Shown: piece after piece, positions 17,185 through 30,796 of the stretch
How positions within the stretch are numbered: the stretch's first letter is position 1
How the letters are laid out: each line of letters starts with the position of its first letter
Source: Prevotella sp.
Lineage (GTDB): Bacteria; Bacteroidota; Bacteroidia; Bacteroidales; Dysgonomonadaceae
Reading direction: 5' to 3'
Assembly (NCBI GenBank): GCA_031285625.1
Contig: JAITVV010000007.1
Span: 124,001 to 188,000 of the forward strand
DNA length: 64,000 bases
Translations under genes and position numbers: made by a program
Notes under the pieces: generated by a model
Seen by the model: the letters and a program-made list of their open reading frames with translations, nothing else
Database searches by the model: none
Told to the model about the DNA's origin: nothing

Positions 17185-18018
17185 TTAATATAGAGTATAT
17201 GGCTTGTCCACACCAATTTGCAGAAATTGATTTTTGTAATCACCCGATCTAAAATCCGGAGTATTAAACAGACTCCTGTGCCACCCATTTTGACCGGCAA
17301 CCCCTCCTACCCGGTTATTTATACCATAACGCAAGATCATACCATTGGTTGCATATCCTACATATACTGGGCTTGAGATTTGTTTTCCATCGCAATAAAC
17401 ACCTTTACTATTATTTAATGAAGCATCAGTAACTCCGTTAATATCTGTAGTATATACATTAGTACCTATCATAAATCCTTTGAAACGTACTTCCAATGCT
17501 GCAGTACGGTAACGGTCATATACTTTAAATCCGGTAAAAGGATAGGCTAGTATATCATCCTCAAAATTAATTCTAAAGTCATTCAGATGAAGGCTAACAA
17601 TACCTGATACCTGCTTATCACCCTGATAATATTTATTTACATAATATGATCCTCCATATTTGCCATCATCAAATTCTACCCCGGCAAACGATGTTCCCAA
17701 ACCAAATTTCTGATAAGCCTTATAAGCATCCATGCCTGTAAGAAGAGTCCAGTTGTCAATGGTTTGTGAAAGAGTAATACCTGCCCCCACGCGAAAACCG
17801 TTACGATCAGAAGCACCGGTAGTAAATAGTGCTACAAGTGAAATTGATACCCGAAAACCGTTATTTTTTTCTAGCCCGAATGTCAAAGTAGTAAGGTAGT
17901 CGTTATCGTAACGGAATTTATATTGTGAGTATGATTGTTGTGAGTATGATAAGAATAAAAACAAAATGATACATATAATATTATACTTATGGTTCTTTAT
18001 CCTTTTTTGTAATTTCAT
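17185..18018 (-). CDS. Secreted beta-rich protein with a type 23 polymorphic-toxin-like C-terminus
   Basis: 277 aa with a signal peptide (NIICIILFLFLSYSQQSYSQ). The N-terminal half looks like short outer-membrane-type beta strands (FRVGAGITLSQTIDNWTLLT). The C-terminal half contains PFTGFKVYDRYRTAALEVRF, then TNVYTT and a final WHRSLFNTPDFRSGDY block. This recalls Bacteroidota proteins annotated as polymorphic toxin type 23 (Ntox23), a resemblance from memory only. It is followed at 1 bp by a lipoprotein gene. Alternatives are an outer membrane or surface structural protein. No secretion-adaptor or Rhs repeat is attached. Confidence 0.6.
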   Translation of the reverse strand: MKLQKRIKNHKYNIICIILFLFLSYSQQSYSQYKFRYDNDYLTTLTFGLEKNNGFRVSISLVALFTTGASDRNGFRVGAGITLSQTIDNWTLLTGMDAYKAYQKFGLGTSFAGVEFDDGKYGGSYYVNKYYQGDKQVSGIVSLHLNDFRINFEDDILAYPFTGFKVYDRYRTAALEVRFKGFMIGTNVYTTDINGVTDASLNNSKGVYCDGKQISSPVYVGYATNGMILRYGINNRVGGVAGQNGWHRSLFNTPDFRSGDYKNQFLQIGVDKPYTLY

Positions 18019-18189
18019 TCCTGTTTGCTCATGCAGATTTTCTCCAAAAGTATTAAACTATTTCGGTTTTTTATCTTATAGAAAGAATTTTCGTTATTTA
18101 TTATGGATTTTAGATCTTATATAACTCTAAGTATAAAGCATAATTGATATATTTACATACTAAAACTATTTACTAAACAATACAAAACT

Positions 18190-18684
18190 ATGAAGAAGAT
18201 CAGCCTAGTCATTTTATGTGTTCTAATGATAACATGTACACCTGACAGAAAAAAGGATAATACAGGGAAAGAAACTCCGGAAAAGGAAATAATCAGAGAA
18301 AACATTAAGGAAGAAGTTGATATACCTGAAACAGAAAAAGAAGTAATAACAGATAATATATCTAATGGTGAAAAACCTCTTGTAACTGTAGAACAAATGC
18401 CTTCTTTTAAGGGAGGAGAAGCCGAAATGTTTAAATTTATTTCTAACAACATGAAATATCCTGCCAGTGCTAAAGAGAACGGTATACAAGGTCGTGTTAC
18501 AGTTCGTTTTGTAATTACTTCTGCAGGAAAAATCACAGATGTACAAATAATCAGAGGCATTGATCCGGCATGTGATAAAGAAGCTATACGCATAGTAAAA
18601 AGTATGCCTGATTGGGAACCGGGTAAACAAAATGGTAAAGCAGTATCAGTATATTATACGCTGCCTATCAAATTTAGCTTGTAA
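18190..18684 (+). CDS. Lipoprotein with a TonB C-terminal domain
   Basis: 164 aa. Lipoprotein signal MKKISLVILCVLMITC, then a highly charged linker (residues about 18-65, rich in Lys and Glu). The TonB C-terminal fold follows: MPSFKGGEAEMFKFISNNMK, YPASAKENGIQGRVTVRFVI, PDWEPGKQNGKAVSVYYTLP. This domain is very common in Bacteroidota envelope proteins. Because it has a lipobox rather than a TonB-like membrane anchor and lies apart from ExbB/ExbD, it is probably not the energising TonB itself. The next gene starts 24 bp downstream. Confidence 0.85.
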   Translation: MKKISLVILCVLMITCTPDRKKDNTGKETPEKEIIRENIKEEVDIPETEKEVITDNISNGEKPLVTVEQMPSFKGGEAEMFKFISNNMKYPASAKENGIQGRVTVRFVITSAGKITDVQIIRGIDPACDKEAIRIVKSMPDWEPGKQNGKAVSVYYTLPIKFSL

Positions 18685-18708
18685 TCACAGGATAAAGCAT
18701 TGTCCTAT

Positions 18709-19569
18709 ATGAAAAAAATGAATCTACTCTTTTCATGGATACTTCTCTCATGCTGCATGTTTGCTCAGACAGAGAGGAATATTATCGGGACATGGAAGTT
18801 TCTCAAAATTGATGCTATTGTAGAAACGAACTCTAGAGAAGCCACAGATAAGATCGTTGAAGATATTAGATCTCAACTAGAGTCAGATAGTATATATATA
18901 GAATTTACCACAAATGGTGAATGGATAACTATAGGAGAAGGTGTTCAAGGTATTGGCACCTATTCTGTTAATCAGAATAGGCTGACTGATCTGGAGACAA
19001 ATATATCAATGGACTACAGAGTGAATAAAGACACACTGATTTTAGATGTTGATTTCAATAAACTCGATACCTATGACACACATAAGTTAACAAACATGGA
19101 TATAACCCCCGAATCTATAATTATAGATAAGATCCTGGCTGAAACATATTTTTTAAGAGTTGATCAATCTTCGAATAGAATGAGTGAATTACCTGATAAT
19201 TTAACAGGAGTGTATACTCCATCAGGAGAAGATTCGCAAACCTGCCAGATAGAACTCATATCAAAAAACAGTAATAATATATACCAATACGTCCTAAAAG
19301 AAGACACAAAACAGACCCAGGGTACTATATCTTTTTATGGAGACTATGATATAGACAGAGAACTTACTATAGAACTTGAAGGATATAAATGGGAATCAGT
19401 AGGTGACATTAGTGATGAAAACGAGGCATGGCCCGTCTCTGAAACAAGAATAGGACTTGAAGGCACCTTAAAAGATGGTGAAATCACATTTATGAATTAT
19501 AGAAACACAATGGACTACTATATCAAGTTTAGTTGTCCGCAAAAGTTTGTAATATTAGAGAAGAAATAA
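18709..19569 (+). CDS. Secreted protein of unknown function, lipocalin-like start
   Basis: 286 aa from the ATG at 18709; a TTG at 18700 in the same frame is less likely. Signal peptide MKKMNLLFSWILLSCCMFAQ. The mature N-terminus (RNIIGTWKFLKIDAIVETN) resembles lipocalin-like proteins of Bacteroidota that begin with a GTW motif. The second half contains a further beta-rich segment (LTGVYTPSGEDSQTCQIELI). No catalytic motif is apparent. It ends at a strong hairpin terminator and is probably transcribed with the TonB-domain lipoprotein before it. Confidence 0.65.
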   Translation: MKKMNLLFSWILLSCCMFAQTERNIIGTWKFLKIDAIVETNSREATDKIVEDIRSQLESDSIYIEFTTNGEWITIGEGVQGIGTYSVNQNRLTDLETNISMDYRVNKDTLILDVDFNKLDTYDTHKLTNMDITPESIIIDKILAETYFLRVDQSSNRMSELPDNLTGVYTPSGEDSQTCQIELISKNSNNIYQYVLKEDTKQTQGTISFYGDYDIDRELTIELEGYKWESVGDISDENEAWPVSETRIGLEGTLKDGEITFMNYRNTMDYYIKFSCPQKFVILEKK

Positions 19570-19590
19570 AAGAGACTATTTAGTCTCTTT
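19569..19590 (+). terminator. Hairpin terminator after the 18709-19569 gene
   Basis: AAAGAGACTA (19569-19578) and TAGTCTCTTT (19581-19590) form a perfect 10-bp stem with a TT turn, ending in a T-rich run directly after the stop codon. It may also serve the small convergent ORF on the minus strand. Confidence 0.7.
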
Positions 19591-19604
19591 CCTTTACTCA
19601 TTAG

Positions 19605-19760
19605 TTAACCTCTATCCCTTGTATTTTCATCGGGATTCAAAATATCATTTTCTCTTTCGACCTCACGATCAGAAACTGTTCGCGGGTTTTTCTCATCGCT
19701 TTTATCTTCTGTCACTTTTTGAAAAGCGTTTTCCTCAGCTTTATTTTCCTCTTTGCACAT
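19605..19760 (-). CDS. Small highly charged protein (51 aa)
   Basis: Short ORF starting MCKEENKAEENAFQK and ending NPDENTRDRG, with over half of its residues charged or amide. It is convergent with the 18709 gene and ends 15 bp from that gene's terminator. Codon use is ordinary for the window. A perfect 16-bp palindrome lies 61 bp before its start. No family recognised; it could be a small cytosolic protein or a chance ORF. Confidence 0.45.
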   Translation of the reverse strand: MCKEENKAEENAFQKVTEDKSDEKNPRTVSDREVERENDILNPDENTRDRG

Positions 19761-19821
19761 AATAAATAATAGATTAATTCATATTTTGTAAACATAAAAA
19801 GTCATGATAAAGTTTATTGAA

Positions 19822-19837
19822 AGCCTGTATACAGGCT
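19822..19837. promoter_or_regulatory. Perfect 16-bp palindrome
   Basis: AGCCTGTATACAGGCT is perfectly self-complementary and stands alone in AT-rich sequence upstream of the small minus-strand ORF. With no loop it is a better dimer-binding site than a terminator. The cognate factor is unknown. Confidence 0.4.
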
Positions 19838-20000
19838 AATTTAATAAAAAGTGTAGCATAAAAAAGTCATATTTCACCAAAGATATATTAAGCTTAAAAA
19901 TCTCATAATCAAAAGGATCCTATTCTCCTATCGAAAGAAAAAGTCATCACCCCCTAAAAACAAGATTTATTTTATATTATAATTTATATTTTTGGAATGT

Positions 20001-20117
20001 TAACCTTAAGTCTATTAGAAAGAATAAGATTTTGATAATAAGAGGTAGTAGTGTTTGTGTACATTTTGTTCGAATTAGATTAGATTAAGAAAAGGGCTGG
20101 TGACAGTCCTTTTTTTG
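20001..20117 (+). ncRNA. Candidate small RNA
   Basis: A Rho-independent terminator at 20090-20117 has no plus-strand gene ahead of it. TATTTTTG at 19987-19994 fits the Bacteroidota -7 box and would start an RNA of about 115 nt, though no -33 TTG is visible. No known RNA family recognised. Confidence 0.3.
20090..20117 (+). terminator. Rho-independent terminator without an upstream gene
   Basis: AAAAGGGCTG (20090-20099), loop GTGA, CAGTCCTTTT (20104-20113) with one G-T pair, then more T residues. Confidence 0.65.
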
Positions 20118-20180
20118 ATTTGCACTATATGTGATTAGATCCGTAAAACATTCCTATATTTGTAAAAACATTACAAATAA

Positions 20181-20675
20181 ATGGCGTTAGACATAATACT
20201 AATTATAATAGGGATTATACTTATTGTTTTGGGGATTGTTGGCTGCATAGCTCCGGGACTTCCAGGCGTACCACTCAACTATCTTGCAATTATAGTATTA
20301 CAATTTACATCTAAAATTAATTTTTCTACTGAGTTTCTTATTCTTTGGGCTATTGCTGTTATTATAGTCCAATTACTGGACTATTACATTCCGGTATGGG
20401 GCACTAAAAAACTTGGCGGAGGTTCCTATGGAGCCTGGGGTTGCGCTATAGGTATCATCCTTGGACTGTTTGTATTTCCTCCATGGGGATTCATTTTCAT
20501 GCCTTTTGTTTGTGCTGTAATAGGTGAGCTATTAGACAATAAGGAGTTTAAAGTCGCATTAAAAGCTGGTTTTGGCGCATTTATCGGATTCCTGGCCGGA
20601 ACTCTCATGAAACTTATAGTTGCAATCATATTATCCTTCTACTTCTTCAGGGAAGTATTCAGATATTTCATTTAG
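20181..20675 (+). CDS. DUF456 family membrane protein
   Basis: 164 aa with four or five membrane segments. It opens with IILIVLGIVGCIAPGLPGVP and carries WGTKKLGGGSYGAWGCAIG and PPWGFIFMPFVCAVIGELL, the glycine- and proline-rich blocks of DUF456, with C-terminal repeats suggesting an internally duplicated helix hairpin. The molecular function of the family is unknown. The gene is monocistronic and convergent with the SpeE-like gene, with a TATATTTG -7 box 18 bp before the start. Confidence 0.88.
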   Translation: MALDIILIIIGIILIVLGIVGCIAPGLPGVPLNYLAIIVLQFTSKINFSTEFLILWAIAVIIVQLLDYYIPVWGTKKLGGGSYGAWGCAIGIILGLFVFPPWGFIFMPFVCAVIGELLDNKEFKVALKAGFGAFIGFLAGTLMKLIVAIILSFYFFREVFRYFI

Positions 20676-20718
20676 CAGATAAGCTATTTGGCTGAACCTA
20701 TAAATATTTAATGTCCTA

Positions 20719-22248
20719 TTAACTGTTAACTGCTATATCTTTTTCATAATAGCCTATCAGCACAGGCTTGAAAAGTGTGTTTATATCCAGTTTGTCCATA
20801 TCTGCTTTTTCATCATTTGCAAAAAGGAATAGAGACGGGTAATTGCTTTGATTCAGATATTGGTAAGCAATATTGGAAGGCAATTTCAGGTTATCAGGAA
20901 CTATGTAACGTTCCGAAGCCATATTAAAACCCCAGTCGCCGAATGACGGTACATTCACATGGTAAGGCACTACACAGGAAAATTCCTCTTTTAATGTCTT
21001 GTTGATACACCAAAAGGCATTTTTCGTATAATAAGGACTGTTGGACTGTGTGACCATAACCCCGCCCGGCATCAGATTATTCTTTATCAGACGGTAAAAA
21101 GCTGTGGTATACAGTTTATTTAAGGCATCATTATTGGGGTCGGGCAAATCGATAATGATAACATCATACAATTTTTGAGGATGCTGCAGATATGTAAAAG
21201 CGTCCTCTATAATTATACTCACTTTAGGATTAAAAAAAGCGCTATCGTTTAACCGGCATATTTCCGTATATTCTTTTGCTAATGAAACTACTGCATCGTC
21301 CAGATCCACCAGTGTAATGGTTTCTACACCGGGATATTTCAGTAGTTGTTTTGCTGCAAGCCCGTCCCCAGCTCCCAGCAATAAAATATCTTTCGCATGT
21401 GGACATGCCGCCATCGGAACATGCACTAACGGTTCGTAGTAACGGTATTCGTCCGCAGACGAAAATTGAATATTTCCATCGAGGAAAAGGCGTAAATCAT
21501 TTTTATGTTTAGTAAGGACTATTTTCTGGTAAAGGCTTTGCTTAGTATATACAATCCGGTCGCGGTACAACCCTTCTTCAAGATTATAAGTTATGTAGTC
21601 TCCACTAATAGTAAACCCAAGGATAGTAACAAAACAGACAACCAGCGTACCCTGAAAGAACTTACTGTACCGGAGATACTCCCTATAGCGCACAACAATG
21701 ATAGTGGCAGCAATCAGATTGATAAGGCCCACAACAAAACTTGTGGTTACATATCCCAGTTGAGGCAGAAGCAGTAAAGGGAAAGCGATAGAACCTATCA
21801 GCCCGCCAATATAATCGAATGTGAAAAGATTGGCAATATTGGATTTTATATTTTGCTTGTGTTCCTCAATGATACGCACCAACATTGGGATTTCGATACC
21901 GACAAGCATACCAATGGATAAGGTAAGCAGATACATCACTAAAGGGTAAATACTGGTATATATATGGCAGACAAACAGCAATATACTAGAAAAACTACCC
22001 AGCAGACCGACTGTAATCTCTACCAGAGTGAAAGCATCGAACAGATTGCGGCTCACATATTTTGACACATACGAACCCACACCCATAGCAAACAGATAGA
22101 GCCCTATAGTAATAGAGAACTGGGTAATGCTGTTTCCCAACAAATAAGAACTCAGACTGCCTATAATCAACTCGTAGACAATCGAGCAGATAGAAATCAG
22201 AAGTGTAGTAAACAGAAGCGGGACCGCATTGAATTGCTTTTGTCCCAT
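20719..22248 (-). CDS. Membrane-anchored spermidine synthase-like aminopropyltransferase
   Basis: 509 aa. About seven membrane segments fill residues 10-215 (IVYELIIGSLSSYLLGNSIT, FAMGVGSYVSKYV). A cytoplasmic SAM-fold domain follows: LDGNIQFSSADEYRYYEPLV, LLLGAGDGLAAKQLL near 286, TLVDLDDAVVSLA, and catalytic-type VIIIDLPDPNNDALNKLYTT near 365. Spermidine synthases move an aminopropyl group from decarboxylated SAM to putrescine. This membrane-fused subfamily lies here with two DUF350 genes, a DUF4178 gene and a speD-like gene in one tightly spaced operon (2 bp from the DUF350 stop). It may modify a membrane-linked or unusual amine rather than make bulk spermidine; that is inference. Confidence 0.85.
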   Translation of the reverse strand: MGQKQFNAVPLLFTTLLISICSIVYELIIGSLSSYLLGNSITQFSITIGLYLFAMGVGSYVSKYVSRNLFDAFTLVEITVGLLGSFSSILLFVCHIYTSIYPLVMYLLTLSIGMLVGIEIPMLVRIIEEHKQNIKSNIANLFTFDYIGGLIGSIAFPLLLLPQLGYVTTSFVVGLINLIAATIIVVRYREYLRYSKFFQGTLVVCFVTILGFTISGDYITYNLEEGLYRDRIVYTKQSLYQKIVLTKHKNDLRLFLDGNIQFSSADEYRYYEPLVHVPMAACPHAKDILLLGAGDGLAAKQLLKYPGVETITLVDLDDAVVSLAKEYTEICRLNDSAFFNPKVSIIIEDAFTYLQHPQKLYDVIIIDLPDPNNDALNKLYTTAFYRLIKNNLMPGGVMVTQSNSPYYTKNAFWCINKTLKEEFSCVVPYHVNVPSFGDWGFNMASERYIVPDNLKLPSNIAYQYLNQSNYPSLFLFANDEKADMDKLDINTLFKPVLIGYYEKDIAVNS

Positions 22249-22250
22249 CT

Positions 22251-22460
22251 CTACTGTATTGCCCCGCTAATAATAATGCCAATAGCAATAATAAATCCGC
22301 CCATGGCTATACCCGCAGCCGAGTTATGGTCATCAATGGCTTTGTTTAGGTCTATTTTAGCCAGTTTACAAAGCAATACCATTGCATAATAGCCAATGGC
22401 AAACAGGGCGATACCTATAGCCCAATATTCTATTGTAGATAATATTCCTGACATACTCAT
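22251..22460 (-). CDS. DUF350 small membrane protein (first of pair)
   Basis: 69 aa with two membrane helices (IEYWAIGIALFAIGYYAMVL and AGIAMGGFIIAIGIIISGAI) joined by a short polar loop containing the family NSAAGIA motif. The start is ambiguous: ATG at 22460 abuts the preceding stop, while ATG at 22454 sits better behind AGGAGG. DUF350 proteins occur in pairs as duplicated helical hairpins. Their molecular role is unknown. Position between DUF350 number two and the SpeE-like gene fixes it in the operon. Confidence 0.85.
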   Translation of the reverse strand: MSMSGILSTIEYWAIGIALFAIGYYAMVLLCKLAKIDLNKAIDDHNSAAGIAMGGFIIAIGIIISGAIQ

Positions 22461-22664
22461 TTATCCTCCTACGATTACAGACCTGATAATAATAGCAAGC
22501 CCAATGAAAATACCGGCTACAAGAAAACCTGTAGCATTACTTTTCTCTTCGAAGATTTCGCGCGTAAACTTGTATGGAATAAGCAAATCCATAATTACGG
22601 CACCTATGATAAGTAATACGATGCCAAGTGCACCATAACCTATCGAATTCAGAATTTGTGACAT
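22461..22664 (-). CDS. DUF350 small membrane protein (second of pair)
   Basis: 67 aa from the start at 22664 (MSQILNSIGYGALGIVLLII); the frame stays open to 22763 but that would overlap the upstream gene. Two membrane helices, a basic middle segment (LLIPYKFTREIFEEKSNATG) and the family pattern NATGFLVAGIFIGLAIIIRS. It is clearly a paralogue of the preceding 69-residue protein, so the two may form a heteromeric membrane assembly. Confidence 0.85.
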   Translation of the reverse strand: MSQILNSIGYGALGIVLLIIGAVIMDLLIPYKFTREIFEEKSNATGFLVAGIFIGLAIIIRSVIVGG

Positions 22665-22689
22665 ATCCTTATATAATTTATAATATTTA

Positions 22690-24234
22690 TTACTTACCGA
22701 AACTTGTACCCCCACCCTGCGAACTGCGGCTATATATACTGGACTGGCGGGTGCTGGATACATAATTATCGTACTTTGTTGTATTTATAGTTGTGTGATC
22801 CGGATAATTGTTTCTGGCAGCCGATCTGAAGAACCAATACATGCGATGCCTGTGATATGCCCTATAGGGGCTATATTCTTCCTGAGGCTCCTCTCCTTTT
22901 TTATCTATTTGAACCATTGTATTGCCATCTTCTCCCATATAAATAAGGGCTGTTTCTTTATCAGTCTGTACCATTATCAGGTCTTCTCCGATAGAATCAT
23001 TGGAGGTTACAACCGATTTTACATTTTCAGGATCCATATCAATTATGATTTTGCATGTGGCATCCGGATCATAATCAGACCTATAGATATCACTTTTGGT
23101 ATTAGACTTATTATTAGATGTCACTGATGTTTCGTAAGCAAACATCGCATTCGACTTCAATCCGTCCTTAATCGGATGTTTAGAATCACACGATGGCCAA
23201 AACATTACAAAAGCTACTACAGCCACAATCGCAGTCCAGATATACCCTTTAAAACCTTTACCTTTTCCGGAATTGCTACTTTCACTCCAATTGCTGATAT
23301 GCTCGATACCTAAGAGCTCTATATCCGTTTCATAAACCTCCTCTCCCAGTGAAGCCTCGGTTTCGTCTTCCCATATTTCGACGGATAGTTGTTCCCCACT
23401 TGTTGAACGGTACTCTTTGTAAGAAAAAGACTCATTATAATCAAAATCAACATCACCTTTACAATCTGCGACTCTGGCCTGACCTTTTTCTACAAATCCA
23501 AAAATTATATTATTATATTCTACTTTCTTTTCCGAATCCGAAAATTTAACACCTCTGTACGGAACCGAATAAGACAGACTAATTTCATAATTTTCTTTAC
23601 TTATTTTTTCTACTGAAAGCCAGTATTCTTTCCGGCCTCCATCAAGCTTATACTCTGTCCATGAGGCATTTTTATGTTTATGCTTAACATAGCCAACAAT
23701 GGTATAATTTTTACCCTTTATTTTTAGTTTCTGACCGACAGGCAGTTTTTCCCATTCATGCTTTTTCTCTACAGGAAGCGATGGCGGAACGAATAATGAT
23801 TCGGATTTTATATTTTCGAACAAAACTCTTTCACCTACATAAAACTCGCTGTATCTTCCCCATGTTTCGCTGCTGAATATATGCTGGTTATCATGCACCG
23901 ATTCGTAGTCGATAAAGTGCACTTCATTTCCCATTGTGACATCGCTTATACCACTTTTATTAATTACAGTGGCATCCCCTTCTTCAAGAATAGACGAGCC
24001 CTCATCATGAGGTTTAGGAAATAAAGCGGGATCAGCTACTTTGTAAAGGATAAGTTCTTCCCGAGAGGATAATTCGATATTGAACCAAAACTCTTCTCCG
24101 TTAGATGTATCTGTAAGCAAGAATTCTTTCCACTGATACGCCCCCTGTTTGAGCTCCATTACTCCTTTTATAAGGAAAGACCGGCTATTGATCTCGAGGC
24201 TATCGTTTCTTTTGAGTTGGTATATTCTTTCCAC
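22690..24234 (-). CDS. DUF4178 membrane protein
   Basis: 514 aa, starting at a GTG 5 bp after speD. Two related cytoplasmic beta-rich segments of the DUF4178 type span about residues 1-140 and 165-300 (GAYQWKEFLLTDTSNGEEFW, then NASWTEYKLDGGRKEYWLSV). A single membrane helix follows near 330 (GYIWTAIVAVVAFVMFWPSC), then an exported tail rich in Ser, Asn and Tyr that ends QGGGTSFGK. The family is known mainly from gene neighbourhoods with SPFH proteins, DUF350 and polyamine-type enzymes. Function unknown; the layout suggests a membrane scaffold or sensor with a ligand domain inside and a flexible tail outside. Confidence 0.8.
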   Translation of the reverse strand: MERIYQLKRNDSLEINSRSFLIKGVMELKQGAYQWKEFLLTDTSNGEEFWFNIELSSREELILYKVADPALFPKPHDEGSSILEEGDATVINKSGISDVTMGNEVHFIDYESVHDNQHIFSSETWGRYSEFYVGERVLFENIKSESLFVPPSLPVEKKHEWEKLPVGQKLKIKGKNYTIVGYVKHKHKNASWTEYKLDGGRKEYWLSVEKISKENYEISLSYSVPYRGVKFSDSEKKVEYNNIIFGFVEKGQARVADCKGDVDFDYNESFSYKEYRSTSGEQLSVEIWEDETEASLGEEVYETDIELLGIEHISNWSESSNSGKGKGFKGYIWTAIVAVVAFVMFWPSCDSKHPIKDGLKSNAMFAYETSVTSNNKSNTKSDIYRSDYDPDATCKIIIDMDPENVKSVVTSNDSIGEDLIMVQTDKETALIYMGEDGNTMVQIDKKGEEPQEEYSPYRAYHRHRMYWFFRSAARNNYPDHTTINTTKYDNYVSSTRQSSIYSRSSQGGGTSFGK

Positions 24235-24239
24235 GTTTA

Positions 24240-24599
24240 TTAGATGTTAAAGTTATCATTTCCCCGTTCTATCACCTGTATATACTTTTCCTCTGGTTGA
24301 TAATAATCAGACAGCAAATCGATAATCACCATTGTATCTGCATTGCCACAAGTAAATACATCAAGAAATATAGACTTGTACTCGGGATATGTATGAATGG
24401 ATATATGCGACTCTGCCAACAATGCAAATGCAGTGTATCCTCCATTGGGAAAAACAGTATGACCAAACTTTATCAAAGTCAAATGGGCATGTTTACAGCA
24501 ATTTTCAAAACATTGTTGCAAACTGTCTTTGTTGTAGTCTGTGTTAGATATACCATAAAATTCAGCCAGAATATGGTTCCCTTTAAACCGGTGTTTCAT
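24240..24599 (-). CDS. speD: SpeD-like pyruvoyl-dependent decarboxylase (AdoMetDC family)
   Basis: 119 aa, the size of prokaryotic class 1B AdoMetDC. The self-cleavage site is present: in LAESHISIHTYPEY the chain would break at E63-S64 to give the pyruvoyl group on S64. H69 and C84 (FTCGNAD) match the processing and proton-donor residues of the Thermotoga enzyme (S63, H68, C83). Classical enzymes make decarboxylated SAM for spermidine synthase, and a SpeE-like gene is in the same operon. However, Bacteroidota usually make spermidine by the carboxyspermidine route, and some SpeD homologues are known to decarboxylate ornithine or arginine, so the substrate is open. Confidence 0.88.
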   Translation of the reverse strand: MKHRFKGNHILAEFYGISNTDYNKDSLQQCFENCCKHAHLTLIKFGHTVFPNGGYTAFALLAESHISIHTYPEYKSIFLDVFTCGNADTMVIIDLLSDYYQPEEKYIQVIERGNDNFNI

Positions 24600-24608
24600 T
24601 TATCATAG

Positions 24609-24653
24609 TTTGTTTGTCGCAAACAAATATATAAAAAAACGATATATACTCAA
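24609..24653 (-). promoter_or_regulatory. speD operon promoter with an overlapping inverted repeat
   Basis: On the minus strand TTG (24653-24651), a 19-bp spacer and TATATTTG (24631-24624) make a full Bacteroidota promoter, with transcription starting only about 18 nt before the speD ATG. TTTGTTTG (24609-24616) and CAAACAAA (24620-24627) form perfect 8-bp arms around TCG, covering the -7 box and start point, an ideal place for a repressor. Confidence 0.65.
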
Positions 24654-24712
24654 TGCGACTGTACTTTTAAAAGCTTGTTTAATTTTAACCGGCGAATATA
24701 ATTATTTTGATA

Positions 24713-25804
24713 TTAGCCGTATTTATTTATGAGCCAGATAGAGAGGCCTAATAATATAAGGCCCGTAAGAATAGCCAGTGTGATTTTCGCCACACTATAC
24801 GGTCTGTCACCAGTGACTCTTCCTGTACGTCCGTTTACAAAGAAATGGTACAGCTTATTATTATAAGTATACGAAGACATGTATACAGGAAGAAGTATCA
24901 GTTTAAACTTAATACTGCTGAATCTTGTTTTAAACGAATTTATCCGTTGTTTATCTCCTCCGATATCCTGACGAATCGCATATTGTATATCAGACTCCAT
25001 TATACTTTTGGCAGAAGTAAATCCTGTCTGCATATTTATATTATACTTCTCGGTAATAAATCCGCTAAGAAAACGGTTATCAGCTTCAACCATATTCATG
25101 GTATCCCAATTGCTGATTTCAGTCATTACCTGAGTTGTAATAATCTTGGAAGCCGGAACCATTACATCATCAAAGAATAAAGAAATATGCCCACTCCGTG
25201 AAGACCAACGTGTACGAGTCTCTGTACGCCGGTTTTTCCCACTTCCTACAGTAACGGTATAATTATCGCCCCGTTGCCCGGCGTAGTCTGTATTTGTCTG
25301 TGCGTCGTATGTCCAGCACGGTATATATACCCCTTGTTGCCTATTAGAATGTAAGGCTCTTGTCTTTAACTTATTTGGAGCGAACCAACGTTTTGATAAC
25401 CATGTCAGCATGTGCACTTGAATCTCATTGTCCGAAATTTTGAACGGCAACAGATAAGAAGGTTGTATCAACCGTTCTTCATGAGCATCCGCCTCTATGA
25501 GTGGAGTACAACAATATGGACACTCCACAGATTTCATACTCTCATCAAAAGTAGATTCTGCACCACACTTACGACAACTGATTACTTTTGTTGCTTTTGT
25601 ATTCAGTATCTCTTCAGTCTGAACATATTGTTCAAAATCAAGTTCTTCAACTTCGTCAACAATTTTTACATCTATTGGTGTATCAGTACCGCAATAGTCG
25701 CAATGAAGTAGAGTAGTCCCGGGTTTATATTTCAGAGCAGCACCACATCCCCGGCATTGATATGTGTCGCTGCTCAAAGATATATTTTCGAAAACGTCTG
25801 ACAT
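24713..25804 (-). CDS. Double zinc-ribbon membrane protein (YdjG-like)
   Basis: 363 aa. Two TFIIB-type zinc ribbons lie at the N-terminus (C17/C20/C35/C38 and C77/C80/C95/C98). A beta-rich region follows with QQGVYIPCWTYDAQTNTDYA and a DNYTVTVGSGKNRRTETRTR loop, and one C-terminal membrane helix (LAILTGLILLGLSIWLINKY). The pattern matches proteins encoded next to SPFH proteins. In Bacillus the ydjFGHI operon pairs such a zinc-ribbon protein (YdjG) with SPFH protein YdjI to hold PspA at the membrane. Here the SPFH gene is 3 bp upstream. No PspA gene is in the window. Confidence 0.8.
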   Translation of the reverse strand: MSDVFENISLSSDTYQCRGCGAALKYKPGTTLLHCDYCGTDTPIDVKIVDEVEELDFEQYVQTEEILNTKATKVISCRKCGAESTFDESMKSVECPYCCTPLIEADAHEERLIQPSYLLPFKISDNEIQVHMLTWLSKRWFAPNKLKTRALHSNRQQGVYIPCWTYDAQTNTDYAGQRGDNYTVTVGSGKNRRTETRTRWSSRSGHISLFFDDVMVPASKIITTQVMTEISNWDTMNMVEADNRFLSGFITEKYNINMQTGFTSAKSIMESDIQYAIRQDIGGDKQRINSFKTRFSSIKFKLILLPVYMSSYTYNNKLYHFFVNGRTGRVTGDRPYSVAKITLAILTGLILLGLSIWLINKYG

Positions 25805-25807
25805 CGT

Positions 25808-26923
25808 TTAATCCTGTTTAGGTAGCGGTGGAGGCATCATAGTCCATAAGTCCTGCAAATCTCCCTGGTTTCCGGCAGGAGCCCAGTCAACCAAGCCACT
25901 TTTCCAAACTAAAGTCTCTTTTGATAAAGTTCTATCCTGTACCAATTTTGTTAACTCACTTCTATTGAATGGACCTGCTTGCTGTCCGTTAATGGCTACG
26001 TAATATGCCACTGCTCCGGGAACAGGAGGCGGACCGCTCTGAGTATTTTGTGTATTCTGACTCTGCATCTGATTAGCCATCGACTGTGTCATCTGGTTAG
26101 CCATAGCCATACCTGCACCCAGCCCAATACCCATGCCTGCGGTTCCGGACGGATTTTCTGCAGCAGCTTCCATAGCTTTGGCTGCTTTTAGCTTGGTCAG
26201 CTTATCCAGGTCAATCTTATCCAGACGGCTAAGTTCAAATATTTCTTTTTTCACCTCATCCGGCATAGAAATATTCTCTATCAGGAATTTAGTAACATCC
26301 ATACCATATGCCATAAAATCATTCTGCATAAAGCCGAATATAGCTTCTGACAATTCATTCAGGTTAGCAGCATACAACTCGACAGGCAGATTGGATTCGG
26401 CTGTAGCATCCGAAAAGCGGGTCACAATGATACTTTTCAGTTGCTCTTTAATATGTTCGGTTGTAAAGGTTTGGTTTGTTCCAACAATCTCTCTAATAAA
26501 TACAGAAGCATCTGTCACCTTAAAAGAATAGATACCGAATGCCCGTATCTCAACCATACCGAAACGGTTATCATTAAGAATAATCGCATTTTTAGTACCC
26601 CATTTCTGATCAAGGAAGTTTTTGGTACTCACAAAATACACCTCAGCTTTAAAGGGACTATTAAAACCATATTTCCAACCTTTGAGAGTTGTCAATATCG
26701 GTAAGTTCTGTGTATTCAATGTATATGTTCCGGGAGAAAAAGTATCCGCAATTTGCCCTTCATTTACAAATACTGCGGTTTGTCCTTCCCGCACAATCAA
26801 CTTAGCATTATTTTTTATTTCATTATTATGTCTTTCAAAGCGATAGACAATAGTATCCTGTGTATTATCCAGAAACTCGATAATATCTATTAACTCATTT
26901 CTTAGTTTGTCAAAAAGTCCCAT
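25808..26923 (-). CDS. SPFH-domain protein with C-terminal GYF_2 domain (YdjI-like)
   Basis: 371 aa. The SPFH/band-7 type domain covers residues about 40-240 (IVREGQTAVFVNEGQIADTF, VEIRAFGIYSFKVTDASVFI) with no obvious N-terminal membrane helix, as in the YdjI class. A coiled segment (SRLDKIDLDKLTKLKAAKAM) and a Met/Gly/Gln-rich linker (about 260-300) follow. The C-terminal GYF_2/DUF4339 module begins YYVAINGQQAGPFNRSELTK and contains the WKSGLVDWAPA block. SPFH proteins form large ring assemblies on membranes. It is the first gene of a pair with the zinc-ribbon protein. Confidence 0.87.
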   Translation of the reverse strand: MGLFDKLRNELIDIIEFLDNTQDTIVYRFERHNNEIKNNAKLIVREGQTAVFVNEGQIADTFSPGTYTLNTQNLPILTTLKGWKYGFNSPFKAEVYFVSTKNFLDQKWGTKNAIILNDNRFGMVEIRAFGIYSFKVTDASVFIREIVGTNQTFTTEHIKEQLKSIIVTRFSDATAESNLPVELYAANLNELSEAIFGFMQNDFMAYGMDVTKFLIENISMPDEVKKEIFELSRLDKIDLDKLTKLKAAKAMEAAAENPSGTAGMGIGLGAGMAMANQMTQSMANQMQSQNTQNTQSGPPPVPGAVAYYVAINGQQAGPFNRSELTKLVQDRTLSKETLVWKSGLVDWAPAGNQGDLQDLWTMMPPPLPKQD

Positions 26924-27031
26924 ATCCGATATTTTTGTGTTATTAAGGTCACAGACCTATTTATTACTTTTAAAATGTATAACAACAATAATTAGTTATT
27001 ATTCTGTTTTTCAAATATACTATAAATCAAA

Positions 27032-27059
27032 TAAAAAAAGCTAGTTTTAACTAGCTTTT
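27032..27059 (-). terminator. Rho-independent terminator after the ligase operon
   Basis: AAAAGCTAGTT (27036-27046), a TT turn and AACTAGCTTTT (27049-27059) form an 11-bp stem; on the minus strand it runs into a T tract, 13 bp past the ligase stop. It separates the ligase operon from the SPFH gene. Confidence 0.85.
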
Positions 27060-27072
27060 CATATCAGGTGGA

Positions 27073-28500
27073 TTATACTTTTTCCCACCCTTTCTTTATA
27101 TTTCCTTCAACGTATGTTTCATATATTTTCTTGATCTGCTCTTCACTATTAGAGATTCTTACATCTCTGTTCAATGGTTCTTTACGATCAGAACTATAGT
27201 TAGTATAGCAGAATACATATGCCGGATATTTAGACGAGTCTTCTTTATGCGTCTTCCACCACATAAATTTTTGTACCATCAACTTGCCTTTAGTTTCTTT
27301 CTTATATACTTCACGCTGCATAACCTCACTTTTCACTCCATCCAGAGATTTTTCTTCCAGAGGCGCAACATAGGCAAAATCAGTAATCTGAGATAAACGT
27401 AAATCCGTAGCATTTATAGCTTTATCTTCTCTAAACCGTTCAAAGATAGGGTATATTAAAGAGAAACCCGATGTTATTCTGGATAGCTTGTATTTACCGT
27501 CAACCACTTCTAATATAGGATTTGTTACGGCTGATGTAGAATTTTCCACGATCACATCATTGAAGTTCACTTCAAGGATTATCTCCGGCCTTACCATATG
27601 AAATGCCACGTGATTAGAGTCTGTCTCAATATATTGCGAAGGCATTTCCATTGGTTTTAATCGTTCCAATATCTCTTTCCGCATTTCATCTGAAAATCCG
27701 TTTCCTGTTTTACCTATTATCTGGAATTTTCCTTCTTCGGGCATCATAGCCAAAAGCATACTTCTTATCTGCCCTTTTGCATCATCAATACCTTCCGAAT
27801 AACCAACGACAACAACATCTGCCGAATGTCGAGGCTTTAGTTTACAGACAAATGGATATTCACTCCTGATAATGATACCTTCAGCATTCTCAGCTTCTAC
27901 CCATTCTTCATATAATTCCTTTATTTCTTTCCGGGAATTAACAACCTTATATCGGGGAGGAAAAACAACAGAAGAATCTTTAAATATACCTGCCAACTCT
28001 TTATATAACAGATCGTAGGTAGTATAATATCCTTTATCCCCATTTATTTCTATTATATCGAAAGGTACAAGACAAAGATCAGATTGCATTTTGGGTTCGG
28101 CCCAAGCCTGTAGGACATTAAAAACCCTTGTACGACCTTCGGTCTCTTTCATACAAACCTCACAAGCAAAGACGGCTGATTGGGTACCAGAGGCTTTTAA
28201 CAAACGGGTTGCTTCTTTCAAAAACGGAAGGCTTCCCCTAACTTTACCGCCCGGATTCATTATATATGAATTTTCTCCATCAAAGAGAAGGATATTAAAC
28301 TCTCCATCATATTTACGGGTAAGATAGAACTCTTTACCCATCGCTTTATCTTCAATCTGTCTGGGATTGATAGAGATAAAATTCTTAGCTATATTTTTCT
28401 TATATAATTTCGCTATGTCACGAGTTTGCTCATCCACAGCATCCAATGTACCAAGTGTATAACCCCGGTCTTGTTTCAGTTTTGTATTATCAATCTTCAT
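27073..28500 (-). CDS. ATP-dependent DNA ligase-type nucleotidyltransferase
   Basis: 475 aa. Nucleotidyltransferase motifs in order: motif I FYLTRKYDGEFNI with Lys63 as the adenylated residue, motif III LVPFDIIEING, motif IV NAEGIIIRSEY, motif V VCKLKPRHSADVVVVGY. An OB-type domain follows, with KTGNGFSDEMRKEILERLKP as in ATP-dependent DNA ligases. About 130 extra residues at the C-terminus (from about 345) are not part of a standard ligase and end VEGNIKKGWEKV. Bacterial replication uses NAD-dependent LigA, so this is an accessory ligase. It overlaps the upstream gene by 11 bp, which ties it to two unknown partners. Substrate (DNA, RNA or protein AMPylation) is open. Confidence 0.8.
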   Translation of the reverse strand: MKIDNTKLKQDRGYTLGTLDAVDEQTRDIAKLYKKNIAKNFISINPRQIEDKAMGKEFYLTRKYDGEFNILLFDGENSYIMNPGGKVRGSLPFLKEATRLLKASGTQSAVFACEVCMKETEGRTRVFNVLQAWAEPKMQSDLCLVPFDIIEINGDKGYYTTYDLLYKELAGIFKDSSVVFPPRYKVVNSRKEIKELYEEWVEAENAEGIIIRSEYPFVCKLKPRHSADVVVVGYSEGIDDAKGQIRSMLLAMMPEEGKFQIIGKTGNGFSDEMRKEILERLKPMEMPSQYIETDSNHVAFHMVRPEIILEVNFNDVIVENSTSAVTNPILEVVDGKYKLSRITSGFSLIYPIFERFREDKAINATDLRLSQITDFAYVAPLEEKSLDGVKSEVMQREVYKKETKGKLMVQKFMWWKTHKEDSSKYPAYVFCYTNYSSDRKEPLNRDVRISNSEEQIKKIYETYVEGNIKKGWEKV

Positions 28501-29197
28501 TGGTTATGCTTTTTAGTTCAAGATTGGTCAAGTGTAATATAAGACAATATTTATCTCCATCTATACGGCCTTCAAGGAATCCACGTTGTGGTTCACCTCC
28601 TGTAGTCAATATAATAGGCTCTATGCCTTTAGCTCCTCCTCCAACAAACATAAACGAATTGCTTTCTGCAAGTTTTGTAGCCATATCATATAGAAAATCA
28701 TACGTTAATCCATTCACATGTTTGAGCTGATATTTACGCGTAAAAACAAACTTCTTAATGGCTTCCTTTTTCGAAAAGAGTTTACCTGTCCAGCGCAAAG
28801 GTATTTCTGTAGTTACATTAGGTTCACGTTTCTCAGCGTCCCTCTCTTCTTTTAAGGTACCATCCGGATTTTTCACATATTCTTTTACCTGTATATGATA
28901 TACGATCTGATCATTTTCGTCCAGATACAATCTTTTTGTTGATGGTAAAATCTTACCAAATAGTTCTATATCAATCTCTGGATCGGATTTAATAATATCT
29001 TCACCTAATTGAACCAAGTCTTCATACTTATCTTTTAAGGCATCTATGGAGGTTTCCATAGTTCCACGCAAGACTTTTACACTTTTACTGTCCTGCCCGT
29101 CAGCAAGTACATACTTGATGTTTGGTTTTGGAGGTATATTATCTAACCCTACCAGAGCATCACGCTTTTTATCGTTTGTTATATTAAGTTGTCTCAT
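28490..29197 (-). CDS. Unknown protein of the ligase operon (235 aa)
   Basis: Not recognised. No signal peptide or membrane segment, so cytoplasmic. The N-terminal half contains LGEDIIKSDPEIDIELFGKI; the middle is charged (VKNPDGTLKEERDAEKREPN). The C-terminal half has KKFVFTRKYQLKHVNGLTYD, SFMFVGGGAKGIEPIILTTG and FLEGRIDGDKYCLILHLTNL. It overlaps the ligase gene by 11 bp and starts 4 bp after the 29202-29804 gene, so translation of all three is coupled. A substrate adaptor for the ligase is a reasonable guess but unsupported. Confidence 0.7.
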   Translation of the reverse strand: MRQLNITNDKKRDALVGLDNIPPKPNIKYVLADGQDSKSVKVLRGTMETSIDALKDKYEDLVQLGEDIIKSDPEIDIELFGKILPSTKRLYLDENDQIVYHIQVKEYVKNPDGTLKEERDAEKREPNVTTEIPLRWTGKLFSKKEAIKKFVFTRKYQLKHVNGLTYDFLYDMATKLAESNSFMFVGGGAKGIEPIILTTGGEPQRGFLEGRIDGDKYCLILHLTNLELKSITNED

Positions 29198-29201
29198 AGC
29201 T

Positions 29202-29804
29202 TTACATCATTGAAAAATCAATATCAAAATCATCGGAGTCGCTTTCTTCCTCTTCAGCATCGATAACGGCAGTTTCCTGCAAGTTGATAAATTCAAAATC
29301 ATTTTTATACCCGACTAACATAAACAGGCCGTTATCATTAGTTATCAGAAAAGCCTGACTGGTATCATAACCTGCGCGGTAATTAAACCTGAACTCGTAA
29401 ATATCATCTCCGATAAATTTTATTAAGTCTTCATAATCTCCGGTTAGTTCATATACAGTTGTAATACTATGATCGAGAAGCGTCTCAACCGAAACTTTGC
29501 TATTCAGATTGATAGGTGTAGAAAATGTGGAGGGTATCTGTTCAACTTTTTCGCCTTTATTATTTACGGCGATCAACTGATCACGATCAACCCAATTCAT
29601 ATGTTCGTCCAGTATACCCATAGAGATACCTCCTTTTGGTATAATAATAGTTCCGGATTCGTCCATACTTACAGCTTTACAGACTTGATTTTTGTCATCT
29701 AATATGACTCTCTCTGTAGTTCCGTATACTTTCGACCGATCTAGTTTTGTGGGTGAACAGACATAGTTTTTGTCATTAACTATAAAAGTTAGTTCTTGTG
29801 CCAT
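29202..29804 (-). CDS. Unknown acidic-tailed protein, first gene of the ligase operon
   Basis: 200 aa, cytoplasmic, not recognised. The N-terminus reads MAQELTFIVNDKNYVCSPTK, then ERVILDDKNQVCKAV and IIIPKGGISMGILDEHMNWV. The last 20 residues are strongly acidic (EEEESDSDDFDIDFSMM), a feature often used to bind basic partners or mimic nucleic acid. CAAAGATA at 29833-29840 reads TATCTTTG on the minus strand and is a possible -7 box 29 bp before the ATG. Confidence 0.7.
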   Translation of the reverse strand: MAQELTFIVNDKNYVCSPTKLDRSKVYGTTERVILDDKNQVCKAVSMDESGTIIIPKGGISMGILDEHMNWVDRDQLIAVNNKGEKVEQIPSTFSTPINLNSKVSVETLLDHSITTVYELTGDYEDLIKFIGDDIYEFRFNYRAGYDTSQAFLITNDNGLFMLVGYKNDFEFINLQETAVIDAEEEESDSDDFDIDFSMM

Positions 29805-29891
29805 TAGAAAGATTGTTAAAGTTCTATTTAAACAAAGATAAAAAAATAATTATAGAATGATACCCTCACATCGCAAGTTGTTAGTACGATA

Positions 29892-30680
29892 TTACAAATT
29901 TCCCGATTCCCAATTACTCCAATGATTATTCGGTTCTAATGCCGGTTTCCAAAGAGTAGCATCCTGATTGACTAATACCTTAGCTATCAACTGATATAAT
30001 TCCTGGTCACTGGCAAGTAAATCTTTATCATAAAGACTGGAATAGTGAAATTCATCCAGAGTCATTATTTTAGGGATATCTAAGGGTATATGTAGCTTTA
30101 TCTCTTCTTCACTTGCTCTGATAAGGTTAGGTTCAGCCTCGTTAAAATATCTTATCAATTCCCCAAAACCGACTAATCTATCAGGATTATCATATTCTCT
30201 TGGTTCTATTCCCAATCCTTCATATTTTAGCGGATCATGCTCAATAGTTACCATTGCCTCTTTTACTCTTACGGCCTCTACTTTAGGATTTATAAGCTCA
30301 AACAGACTTTCACCTGAATCGTCAAGACTTATTCGTTCATATTCTCCACCTGAAATAAGAGTTATTACTTCAGTATTAGAGACCGAAGTATAATCATCAG
30401 AATCTGTTATTATATAATCGATGCAATTACCTACATAATCCAGTTGAATCTCTGCTCTACCTCCCCTATTCTGATAACCACTCTTTTCGAAAATCACAGC
30501 CCATCTTTCCGCATCAGCATATAAATGAATCCTGTTTCCTGCTGTCTCGCAATATCCATGCTCCAGATCAAGGAAAAAATTATAGCAATTATATTTCTCG
30601 CCTTTAGGATAGTAAGAGCCGGGAACATCATTGAAAGCACAATCTAATTCTTCTAAAATATCAAATTCTGTGTAAGGCAT
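29892..30680 (-). CDS. Conserved protein of unknown function (DUF7003-like)
   Basis: 262 aa, cytoplasmic. Opens MPYTEFDILEELDCAFNDVP, then NCYNFFLDLEHGYCETAGNR, RIHLYADAERWAVIFEKSGY and QNRGGRAEIQLDYVGNCIDY. I associate this pattern with an uncharacterised Bacteroidota family (DUF7003, from memory). Such single-domain proteins often look like immunity or SMI1/KNR4-like proteins, but no toxin gene is adjacent. It lies 87 bp upstream of the ligase operon on the same strand; co-transcription is possible but not shown. CAAATATA at 30709-30716 may be its -7 box. Confidence 0.6.
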   Translation of the reverse strand: MPYTEFDILEELDCAFNDVPGSYYPKGEKYNCYNFFLDLEHGYCETAGNRIHLYADAERWAVIFEKSGYQNRGGRAEIQLDYVGNCIDYIITDSDDYTSVSNTEVITLISGGEYERISLDDSGESLFELINPKVEAVRVKEAMVTIEHDPLKYEGLGIEPREYDNPDRLVGFGELIRYFNEAEPNLIRASEEEIKLHIPLDIPKIMTLDEFHYSSLYDKDLLASDQELYQLIAKVLVNQDATLWKPALEPNNHWSNWESGNL

Positions 30681-30737
30681 ATTTTCATGTAATTATAGTG
30701 TTATCAAACAAATATAATCTTATTTGAGAGATTAATA

Positions 30738-30772
30738 AATAAAAAGGTTGCCTTAAAATGTAAGACAACCTT
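30738..30772 (-). terminator. Rho-independent terminator after the DUF349 gene
   Basis: AAGGTTG (30744-30750) pairs with CAACCTT (30766-30772); an inner CTTA/TAAG extends the stem past one mismatch. On the minus strand the hairpin is followed by TTTTATTTATT. Confidence 0.75.
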
Positions 30773-30796
30773 CTCTTATAAATATAAGTAAGTTGA

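Follow-up and report, generated by a model that had tools for sequence, protein, structure and literature searches.

Which molecule accepts the aminopropyl group is the question raised by an operon in the window (the whole stretch of 64,000 nucleotides of Prevotella sp. DNA analysed here), in which a SpeD-type AdoMet decarboxylase is encoded together with a spermidine synthase-like (SpeE) domain fused to membrane helices.

The operon and its neighbours

SpeD, a membrane protein with two DUF4178 domains, two half-size DUF350 proteins and the 7TM-SpeE fusion form one operon (24599-20719, minus strand). The original prediction had listed these together with a zinc-ribbon and an SPFH protein, and all seven minus-strand genes were confirmed among the window's open reading frames, at about the positions it had given. 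The features are:

20181..20675, plus strand: DUF456 protein, boundary of the insertion (DUF456, Pfam, 7e-37)
20719..22248, minus strand: 7TM-SpeE fusion, 509 aa (Spermine_synth, Pfam, 6.7e-40; PRK03612, NCBIfam, 1.5e-177)
22251..22460, minus strand: DUF350 protein b, 69 aa (DUF350, Pfam, 1.2e-11)
22461..22664, minus strand: DUF350 protein a, about 67 aa (DUF350, Pfam, 1.6e-13)
22690..24234, minus strand: tail protein with two DUF4178 domains and a TM helix, 514 aa, GTG start (DUF4178, 5.4e-36, two stretches)
22693..22863, minus strand: C-terminal tail of the preceding protein, residues 458-514, ending SSQGGGTSFGK; its last Lys is the proposed acceptor
24240..24599, minus strand: SpeD, class 1b AdoMet decarboxylase, 119 aa (AdoMet_dc, Pfam, 2.4e-25; TIGR03330 above cut-off)
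24713..25804, minus strand: TM protein with two zinc ribbons, neighbour (two CxxC pairs by eye)
25808..26923, minus strand: SPFH-GYF_2 protein, neighbour (Band_7_1, 1.5e-94, and GYF_2, 1.2e-16, Pfam)

SpeD matches the NCBIfam family SAM_DCase_Bsu (TIGR03330, class 1b) at 9.6e-24, above its cut-off, and is the only SpeD hit in its own genome. The two DUF350 genes, of which gene a starts at 22664 with an ATG after AAGGA, sit between the DUF4178 and 7TM-SpeE genes, and each product covers about half of the Pfam model. Two of the original gene calls need qualification: the zinc-ribbon protein has its two CxxC pairs when read by eye but falls under every Pfam cut-off (best, DZR, 0.0064), and the DUF4178 protein has its DUF4178 and TM segments but also a disordered C-terminal tail that had been missed. 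No RNA element scored above threshold in 18000-31000.

Li, Kurihara, Kim, Liang and Michael reportedly described, in the Biochem J in 2019, polyamine-independent clusters of AdoMetDC, an MFS-type SpdSyn fusion and DUF350; the fusions are said not to have complemented a SpdSyn deletion, the acceptor reportedly being other than putrescine, and the work, which PMC11237479 cites, is not known to name an acceptor. The window shares with that cluster a class 1b SpeD, a multi-TM-SpdSyn-like fusion and an adjacent DUF350, and differs from it by a protein with a C-terminal-lysine tail and by a SpeE domain predicted to lie outside. The operon core (SpeD, DUF350 and 7TM-SpeE) is this polyamine-independent AdoMet-decarboxylase cluster, already described in Ravi 2024 and reportedly by Li and colleagues. 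According to the passages of Ravi 2024 (PMC11237479) covered here, the PspA-CesT/Tir group 2 operon comprises 7TM-SpeE, DUF350, DUF4178 and a Ctha_1186 lipoprotein, the first three of which are common to the window; a lipoprotein partner is a further likeness, and a possible counterpart of it is the type-B lipoprotein of the relatives, which ends GK. Shewanella oneidensis MR-1, to which accession AAN56744.1 of that paper probably belongs, and a Novosphingobium are examples of operon carriers. Pfam searches with nine proteins of the window gave no PspA and CesT/Tir pair. The word lysine is absent from the main text of that paper, and its examined passages mention neither an acceptor tail nor an outward SpeE domain.

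Around 7TM-SpeE, 104 stretches (L041 being the same stretch as L061, yet counted) contained DUF350 in 82, DUF4178L in 67, SpeD in 66, an amine oxidase in 52, SPFH in 18 and PspA in 10. Conserved co-occurrence beyond close relatives, which the original prediction had itself named as its check, is therefore strong. A strict twin-Arg motif is present in 32 of 53 entries of the co-encoded amine oxidase, a point in favour of the tail reading proposed below.

The SPFH and zinc-ribbon pair is a separate unit

In the original prediction the SPFH and zinc-ribbon proteins arrange the SpeD/SpeE site as an envelope-stress or defence device; we regard this as very improbable, since the pair is independent of the operon in the genus. 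Of the 25 genus genomes, 13 encode the zinc-ribbon protein; in two of them (G014 and G017) a gap of 48 bp, without a SpeD operon, separates the pair from DUF456, while a third (G018) has the pair and the operon on different contigs. The empty site and the split rule out pair and operon as one unit: the pair is a separate unit, older than the SpeD operon. Of nine regions examined around the pair in the genus, three (G008, G014 and G017) have DUF456 on the stretch, and G008 carries two other genes between pair and DUF456, so that the spot may accept insertions. What speaks for an organising role is that SPFH and PspA genes do occur near 7TM-SpeE (18/104 and 10/104 stretches) and that band-7 and PspA versions are described in the passages covered of Ravi 2024 (PMC11237479); the SPFH genes that recur in other phyla (the same 18 of 104 stretches) are of other types, and a looser link between SPFH and the operon is possible. 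As to defence, PADLOC returned for the nine window proteins only mad2, over residues 265-436 of SpeE, its core domain; this is weak ground, and a defence system was rejected.

The genus has another route to spermidine

Ordinary or local synthesis of a spermidine-type polyamine by a membrane-tethered spermidine synthase would agree with the catalytic residues and fold, which are kept, and with the NCBIfam equivalog name, polyamine aminopropyltransferase. The distribution in the genus makes this improbable: nspC, of the carboxyspermidine route, is above cut-off in 24 of the 25 genomes, spermidine thus being made by another route, whereas 7TM-SpeE is present in two, SpeD in three and the operon in just two. 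Moreover, the fusions reportedly fail to complement a SpdSyn deletion, and the Lys-tailed protein would be left unexplained. The contrast between nspC (24/25) and 7TM-SpeE (2/25) favours the predicted aminopropyl-type chemistry at the membrane over bulk spermidine synthesis.

Carriage of the operon by phages or plasmids was considered and rejected. Three phage records reached 1e-10, and in none did the match span 80% of the query; viral contigs gave one locus, without DUF350 or K tail; plasmids gave ten records at 1e-50, each of at least 0.6 Mb, and 39 at 1e-15, of which many are soluble SpeE.

Lysine-ended tails accompany DUF350

The tail protein of the window is built of a pair of beta domains resembling DUF4178, a single TM helix (about 329-344), a further domain and the disordered tail; in its AF2 model mean pLDDT is 68.2, and residues 458-514 fall below 50. 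Across 10 tail-bearing rows conservation is 0.77 in the tail versus 0.48 in the DUF4178 domain, and the tail is shared by eight clostridial relatives, which are 25-34% identical to the window protein.

A Lys-ended tail protein accompanying DUF350 loci is a new observation. Of the usable loci, all 81 that have DUF350 on the stretch encode a membrane protein or lipoprotein whose flexible tail has Lys as its last residue, under a rule allowing G, H or V as penultimate residue (V because of a single locus, L155); the endings are -GK or -HK, with one -VK, and under the same rule any other last residue is reached in at most 7/81. Clustered by SpeE identity, these loci form 78 groups at the 90% level and 71 at the 80% level. 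Among the 103 SpeE sequences kept after leaving out L041, every pair is less than 99% identical, and 99 loci remained once four with less than 600 bp upstream of SpeE were left out. When the scan was limited to 1 kb around SpeE and to a penultimate G or H, the last residue was K in 79 of the 99, any other in at most three, and K in none on the opposite strand; a wider scan gave K in 84/99, and dropping the penultimate condition gave K in 80/99, E in 16 and R in 10. Manual reading sought mainly K endings, and the counts were repeated with other last residues as a control; the automatic rule chose the wrong ORF in L060, L063 and L131, whose true tails were found otherwise. The rule was shaped on the first locus set; four DUF350-bearing plasmid loci that were added later all have a Lys tail, three of the four having same-genus or same-order kin in that set. 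Of the 18 usable loci in which DUF350 was not hit, 11 (one of them incomplete) lack a K tail, and neither a Haloarcula locus nor the viral-contig locus, both without DUF350, has one.

The carriers of these tails are unrelated: DUF4178-TM proteins, lipoproteins, membrane proteins of 45-90 aa and long DUF4178 proteins. For the 45-90 aa proteins no Pfam or NCBIfam family was found in four examples tested. Among 296 genomes the type-B lipoprotein was not found outside carriers of 7TM-SpeE, a result to be read as absence elsewhere and not as an independent match, since the search returned the very five genomes that had supplied five of the six alignment rows. With truncated seeds, 67 of 84 homology hits were K-ended, and the 17 others resembled DUF4178 proteins without the tail or overlapping ORFs in a wrong frame. 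A C-terminal-lysine tail is absent from the passages covered of PMC11237479, PMC10407285, PMC11107197, PMC12568646 and PMC10948618, as well as PMC12270671, PMC12506659 and PMC10433244, the search lying mostly outside subscription journals.

A different acceptor at the membrane would be a small molecule or the head group of a lipid (e.g. an amine phospholipid), whose aminopropylated product the Lys-tailed protein would only bind, sense or deliver. We consider this rather unlikely. In its favour are the membrane fusion and DUF350, and Ser/Arg/Gly-rich tails could bind an anionic lipid or wall polymer; however, a binding tail would have no evident need of a fixed end, yet K closes 81 of 81 tails on unrelated carriers, other residues at most seven.

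Catalytic site and predicted topology

In 7TM-SpeE, membrane helices (9-214) are followed by the aminopropyltransferase domain (about 222-506). The residues of the catalytic site and dcAdoMet-binding motif (D317, D367 and D370, with glycines 292, 294 and 296) are the same in every one of the 104 sequences. Soluble spermidine/thermospermine synthases (1uir, 6bq2 and 7xif) have the same fold and catalytic aspartates, but lack the membrane domain; the motif reads D-[FLV]-P-D-P in all 104 fusions versus D-L-[TA]-D-P in three aligned soluble chains.

All 104 sequences are richer in K/R in the N-terminus and loops 2, 4 and 6 than in loops 1, 3 and 5, and 19 of 50 structure rows start within loop 1 (residues 35-38), which places this loop beside the catalytic domain. 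Since loop 1 is also K/R-poor, we infer that the SpeE domain faces the outside of the membrane. It would thus lie on the same side as the tails, as predicted from the charge pattern (104/104), the loop-1 position (19/50 rows) and the tails borne by lipoproteins. In the AF2 model helix 134-187 is continuous, so the count of seven TM helices rests on hydropathy, charge and loop-1 position; the VIA structure rows list no relative of the 7TM part and are silent on its fold. An outside SpeE domain means that dcAdoMet must cross the membrane, for which we know of no precedent.

A candidate acceptor

We propose, with a confidence that we would call evenly balanced, that the operon is a system for aminopropylation of protein tails at the outer face of the cytoplasmic membrane. 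Cytoplasmic SpeD would make dcAdoMet; the 7TM domain, perhaps with the DUF350 proteins, would give it access to the outward SpeE domain; and this domain would move the aminopropyl group onto the side-chain amine of the tail protein's C-terminal Lys, the putative acceptor in the window being the DUF4178-TM protein ending GGGTSFGK. As the Lys side chain is an aminobutyl arm like putrescine, the product would be a protein-bound spermidine-like group, and the cationic tail may then act on the membrane or cell envelope. The tails could also be recognised instead of modified.

The proposal offers a specific candidate acceptor for a widespread aminopropyltransferase, and makes the substrate question checkable by one mass measurement. 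If true, (i) it would represent a new kind of protein modification, with Lys modified outside the membrane; (ii) it would imply passage of dcAdoMet across the membrane; and (iii) it would give a joint purpose to DUF350, DUF4178 and the E. coli YgiB/YjfM tails. The analysis draws attention as well to the 45-90 aa membrane proteins without a family (the four examples above).

Related modifications and an ATP-grasp counterpart

Extension of a Lys side chain into a polyamine, as proposed here, occurs in deoxyhypusine (eIF5A) and diatom silaffins. These differ in that the enzymes are other or unknown and the lysines internal, and to our knowledge neither involves DUF350 or 7TM-SpeE.

In each of the E. 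coli pairs YgiB-YgiC and YjfM-YjfC, a DUF1190 protein goes with an enzyme (YgiC/YjfC) that RefSeq calls peptide--spermidine ligase (cf. Pederick 2023). The likeness lies in a polyamine enzyme next to a partner that resembles a lipoprotein and has a Ser/Gly/Arg tail, and in the DUF350 of the yjf operon; the difference lies in Gly-Gly tails and an ATP-grasp enzyme there versus Lys tails and an aminopropyltransferase here. The ATP-grasp enzyme depends on ATP and presumably works in the cytoplasm; by analogy, the tails might then be modified before export, a point against the proposal.

More tentatively than for the window itself, we suggest that a class of post-translational modification may exist in about ten or more bacterial phyla, combining extracytoplasmic aminopropylation, supplied with dcAdoMet through the membrane, of the C-terminal Lys of a dedicated tail protein with a parallel ATP-grasp coupling of spermidine to C-terminal Gly-Gly that would yield the equivalent product, unrelated proteins being recruited as carriers of both tails. 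A recognisable tail protein was present in 13 of the 15 ATP-grasp loci (none was seen in L158 and L170), and among these relatives of YgiC/YjfC ten of the 13 tails end in Gly-Gly and none in Lys.

Organization of the operon

The seven genes named in the original prediction are all present in the window:

24599-24240, minus strand, SpeD (operon gene 1)
24234-22690, minus strand, DUF4178 protein (operon gene 2)
22664-22461, minus strand, DUF350-a (operon gene 3)
22460-22251, minus strand, DUF350-b (operon gene 4)
22248-20719, minus strand, 7TM-SpeE, a multi-helix membrane domain fused to a SpeE-like aminopropyltransferase domain (operon gene 5)
26923-24713, minus strand, SPFH-GYF_2 and zinc-ribbon genes (the pair), upstream of the SpeD operon across a 113 bp gap

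SpeD, DUF4178, DUF350-a, DUF350-b and 7TM-SpeE are consecutive, with intergenic gaps of 0 to 25 bp, and look like a single operon. The core of this operon is already described: PMC11237479, which cites Li et al. 2019, presents an operon in which 7TM-SpeE is accompanied by DUF350, DUF4178, a lipoprotein and PspA, and proposes roles in polyamine monitoring or in aminopropylation of other substrates. The SpeE core of the 20719-22248 gene matches the PADLOC mad2 (MADS defence) profile (9.9e-18), and the gene at 27073-28500, adjoining the SPFH gene, resembles an ATP-dependent DNA ligase (NHEJ-ligase-like).

The idea that the pair belongs to the operon's site was not borne out, the pair being a separate unit in the genus genomes: the zinc-ribbon protein is present in 13 of 25, and 7TM-SpeE in 2. 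In G014 and G017 only 48 bp, and no operon, separate the pair from DUF456 (the gene at the operon's other side); in G008 two other genes separate the two; in G018 operon and pair are on separate contigs, that of the pair extending 6.6 kb beyond the zinc-ribbon gene without the operon; and the other five regions read around the pair gave no DUF456 match. From the arrangements with no operon between pair and DUF456, the most likely event is insertion of the operon at the junction of the zinc-ribbon gene and DUF456. The closest named SpeE relative is that of Dysgonomonas sp. 521 (93%), so the window probably comes from Dysgonomonas; the next relatives are mostly clostridial (49-55% identity, with one Paludibacteraceae record among them), which fits acquisition by horizontal transfer. 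Other SPFH proteins stand in the operon elsewhere (18 of 104 stretches around 7TM-SpeE); a Novosphingobium row reads SPFH, two DUF4178, a 48-aa protein, DUF350, SpeE, amine oxidase and SpeD.

Relation to spermidine synthesis

The SpeD/7TM-SpeE operon is probably not the spermidine pathway. The carboxynorspermidine decarboxylase gene nspC scored over its cut-off in 24 of the 25 genus genomes, the sole exception being 71% complete, and SpeD was found in 3; at the thresholds used, a single homologue each of SpeD and SpeE was found in the window's own genome, both within the operon. The fusion reportedly fails to complement a spermidine-synthase deletion, and DUF350 is said to cluster with it. The SpeD homologue of G015, a genome without a 7TM-SpeE match, lies at L185:7727-8068 among ORFs that by eye resemble ssb, ParB and terminase genes, and this region is probably a prophage.

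A lysine-ending tail beside 7TM-SpeE

Clustering of the 7TM-SpeE neighbours brought out unrelated proteins with similar ends: a flexible C-terminal tail, on a membrane protein or lipoprotein, ending in lysine (K tail). Judging by their titles, we take the loci to span Bacteroidota, Bacillota, Acidobacteriota, Gemmatimonadota, Nitrospirota, Myxococcota, Spirochaetota, Campylobacterota, Chloroflexota, Desulfobacterota, Pseudomonadota and others. When membrane ORFs with a penultimate G or H were scanned up to 1 kb upstream of SpeE, K was the last residue in 79 of 99 loci and any other residue in at most 3; the opposite-strand control gave K in 0/99. A wider scan gave K in 84/99 (other residues at most 3), and dropping the penultimate condition gave K 80, E 16 and R 10. 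A search tied to DUF350 found the tail at 81/81 loci (GK 47, HK 33, VK 1; other last residues at most 7/81), these being the loci on which the tail rule was shaped; clustering them by SpeE identity leaves 78 groups at 90% and 71 at 80%. Later-fetched plasmid loci with DUF350 had the tail in 4/4 (an Alteromonas lipoprotein, Gemmatirosa, Novosphingobium and Burkholderia), all except Alteromonas having close kin in the first set. Among the 18 usable loci without a DUF350 match, 7 had a K tail (L042, L055, L070, L077, L097, L117 and L121) and none was seen in 11, including the truncated L071; Haloarcula L189 and viral contig L186, both without DUF350, also had none. Terminal K is rarer in the other operon families (SpeE 3/87, DUF350 0/56, long DUF4178 3/52, amine oxidase 2/46, SpeD 1/44, c6 5/23, short DUF4178 1/17, PspA 2/10, SPFH 0/9), the background being 143/1275 called neighbour genes.

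The carriers differ. The DUF4178-TM protein is the carrier in Clostridia and in the window; there the tail is conserved best (0.77 vs 0.48) and is disordered in the predicted model; at L049 it is fused to a long DUF4178 protein. One Bacteroidota group has it on a lipoprotein with an invariant Cys, whose family had no match in 296 phylum genomes beyond five 7TM-SpeE carriers, all of them also sources of the search alignment. In many phyla the carrier is small (45-90 aa), has a single hydrophobic segment and is mostly encoded immediately upstream of DUF350. When two lipoproteins and four small carriers were tested against Pfam and NCBIfam, none of the six reached a family cut-off.

LysW is an amino-group carrier protein; the N-terminal zinc ribbon of a long DUF4178 protein (L156:3268-4527) matches it weakly, below cut-off. 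At L045:12889-13950 a conserved membrane-like protein lies downstream of the amine oxidase; its profile matches in 25/104 stretches, and the one member tested had no Pfam or NCBIfam match.

Predicted topology

Taken together, the N-terminus and loops 2, 4 and 6 (mean K/R 1.72, 2.59, 3.23 and 3.08) carry more K/R than loops 1, 3 and 5 (0.02, 0.50 and 1.02) in 104/104 7TM-SpeE sequences, which, given seven helices, would place the catalytic domain outside. The seventh helix is argued rather than seen, since helix 134-187 of the predicted model is unbroken in DSSP. In the structure alignments, 19 of 50 rows start inside loop 1 (model residues 35-38), which would put this loop beside the catalytic domain. 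As for the tails, the N-flank is the more positive in 47 and the C-flank in 6 of 67 (three wrong picks included). A flavin amine oxidase occurs in 52/104 stretches; of its 53 entries, 32 carry a strict twin-Arg motif, the remainder including near-misses such as SRK and fragments or wrong frames. These three sequence patterns, in SpeE, tail and oxidase, all predict an outward location.

A parallel with ATP-grasp ligases and a proposed mechanism

ATP-grasp ligases work by activating a C-terminal carboxylate, and an aminopropyltransferase requires an amine; Gly-Gly would suit the former and Lys the latter. The RefSeq name of E. coli YgiC and YjfC is peptide--spermidine ligase (compare Pederick 2023), and their DUF1190 neighbours end in Gly-Gly. 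A tail protein could be recognised at 13 of 15 ATP-grasp loci; 10 of these proteins end in GG and 3 otherwise (CCG, SGS, IHA), with K in 0/13. The YgiC/YjfC arm combines an ATP-grasp enzyme with mostly Gly-Gly tails, whereas the 7TM-SpeE arm combines an aminopropyltransferase with Lys tails.

Mainly because the last residue matches the enzyme chemistry in both arms, we propose the tail lysine as the aminopropyl acceptor, a reading to which we give an even chance; the fuller picture, in which the SpeE domain also faces outward and a Gly-Gly arm runs in parallel, gets somewhat less than an even chance. Decarboxylated AdoMet made by SpeD would cross via or alongside the 7TM/DUF350 part, and the outward SpeE domain would move the aminopropyl group onto the tail lysine, giving a spermidine-like end anchored at the membrane, which the amine oxidase, where encoded, may remove or alter.

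The DUF1190-type tails at L141, L142 and L159-L169 often have an SRGGFG-like stretch in common. On an Arthrobacter plasmid, a short Gly-Gly-tailed protein adjoining the ATP-grasp gene (L166:3368-3874) is labelled tRNA-dihydrouridine synthase, a label that looks wrong.
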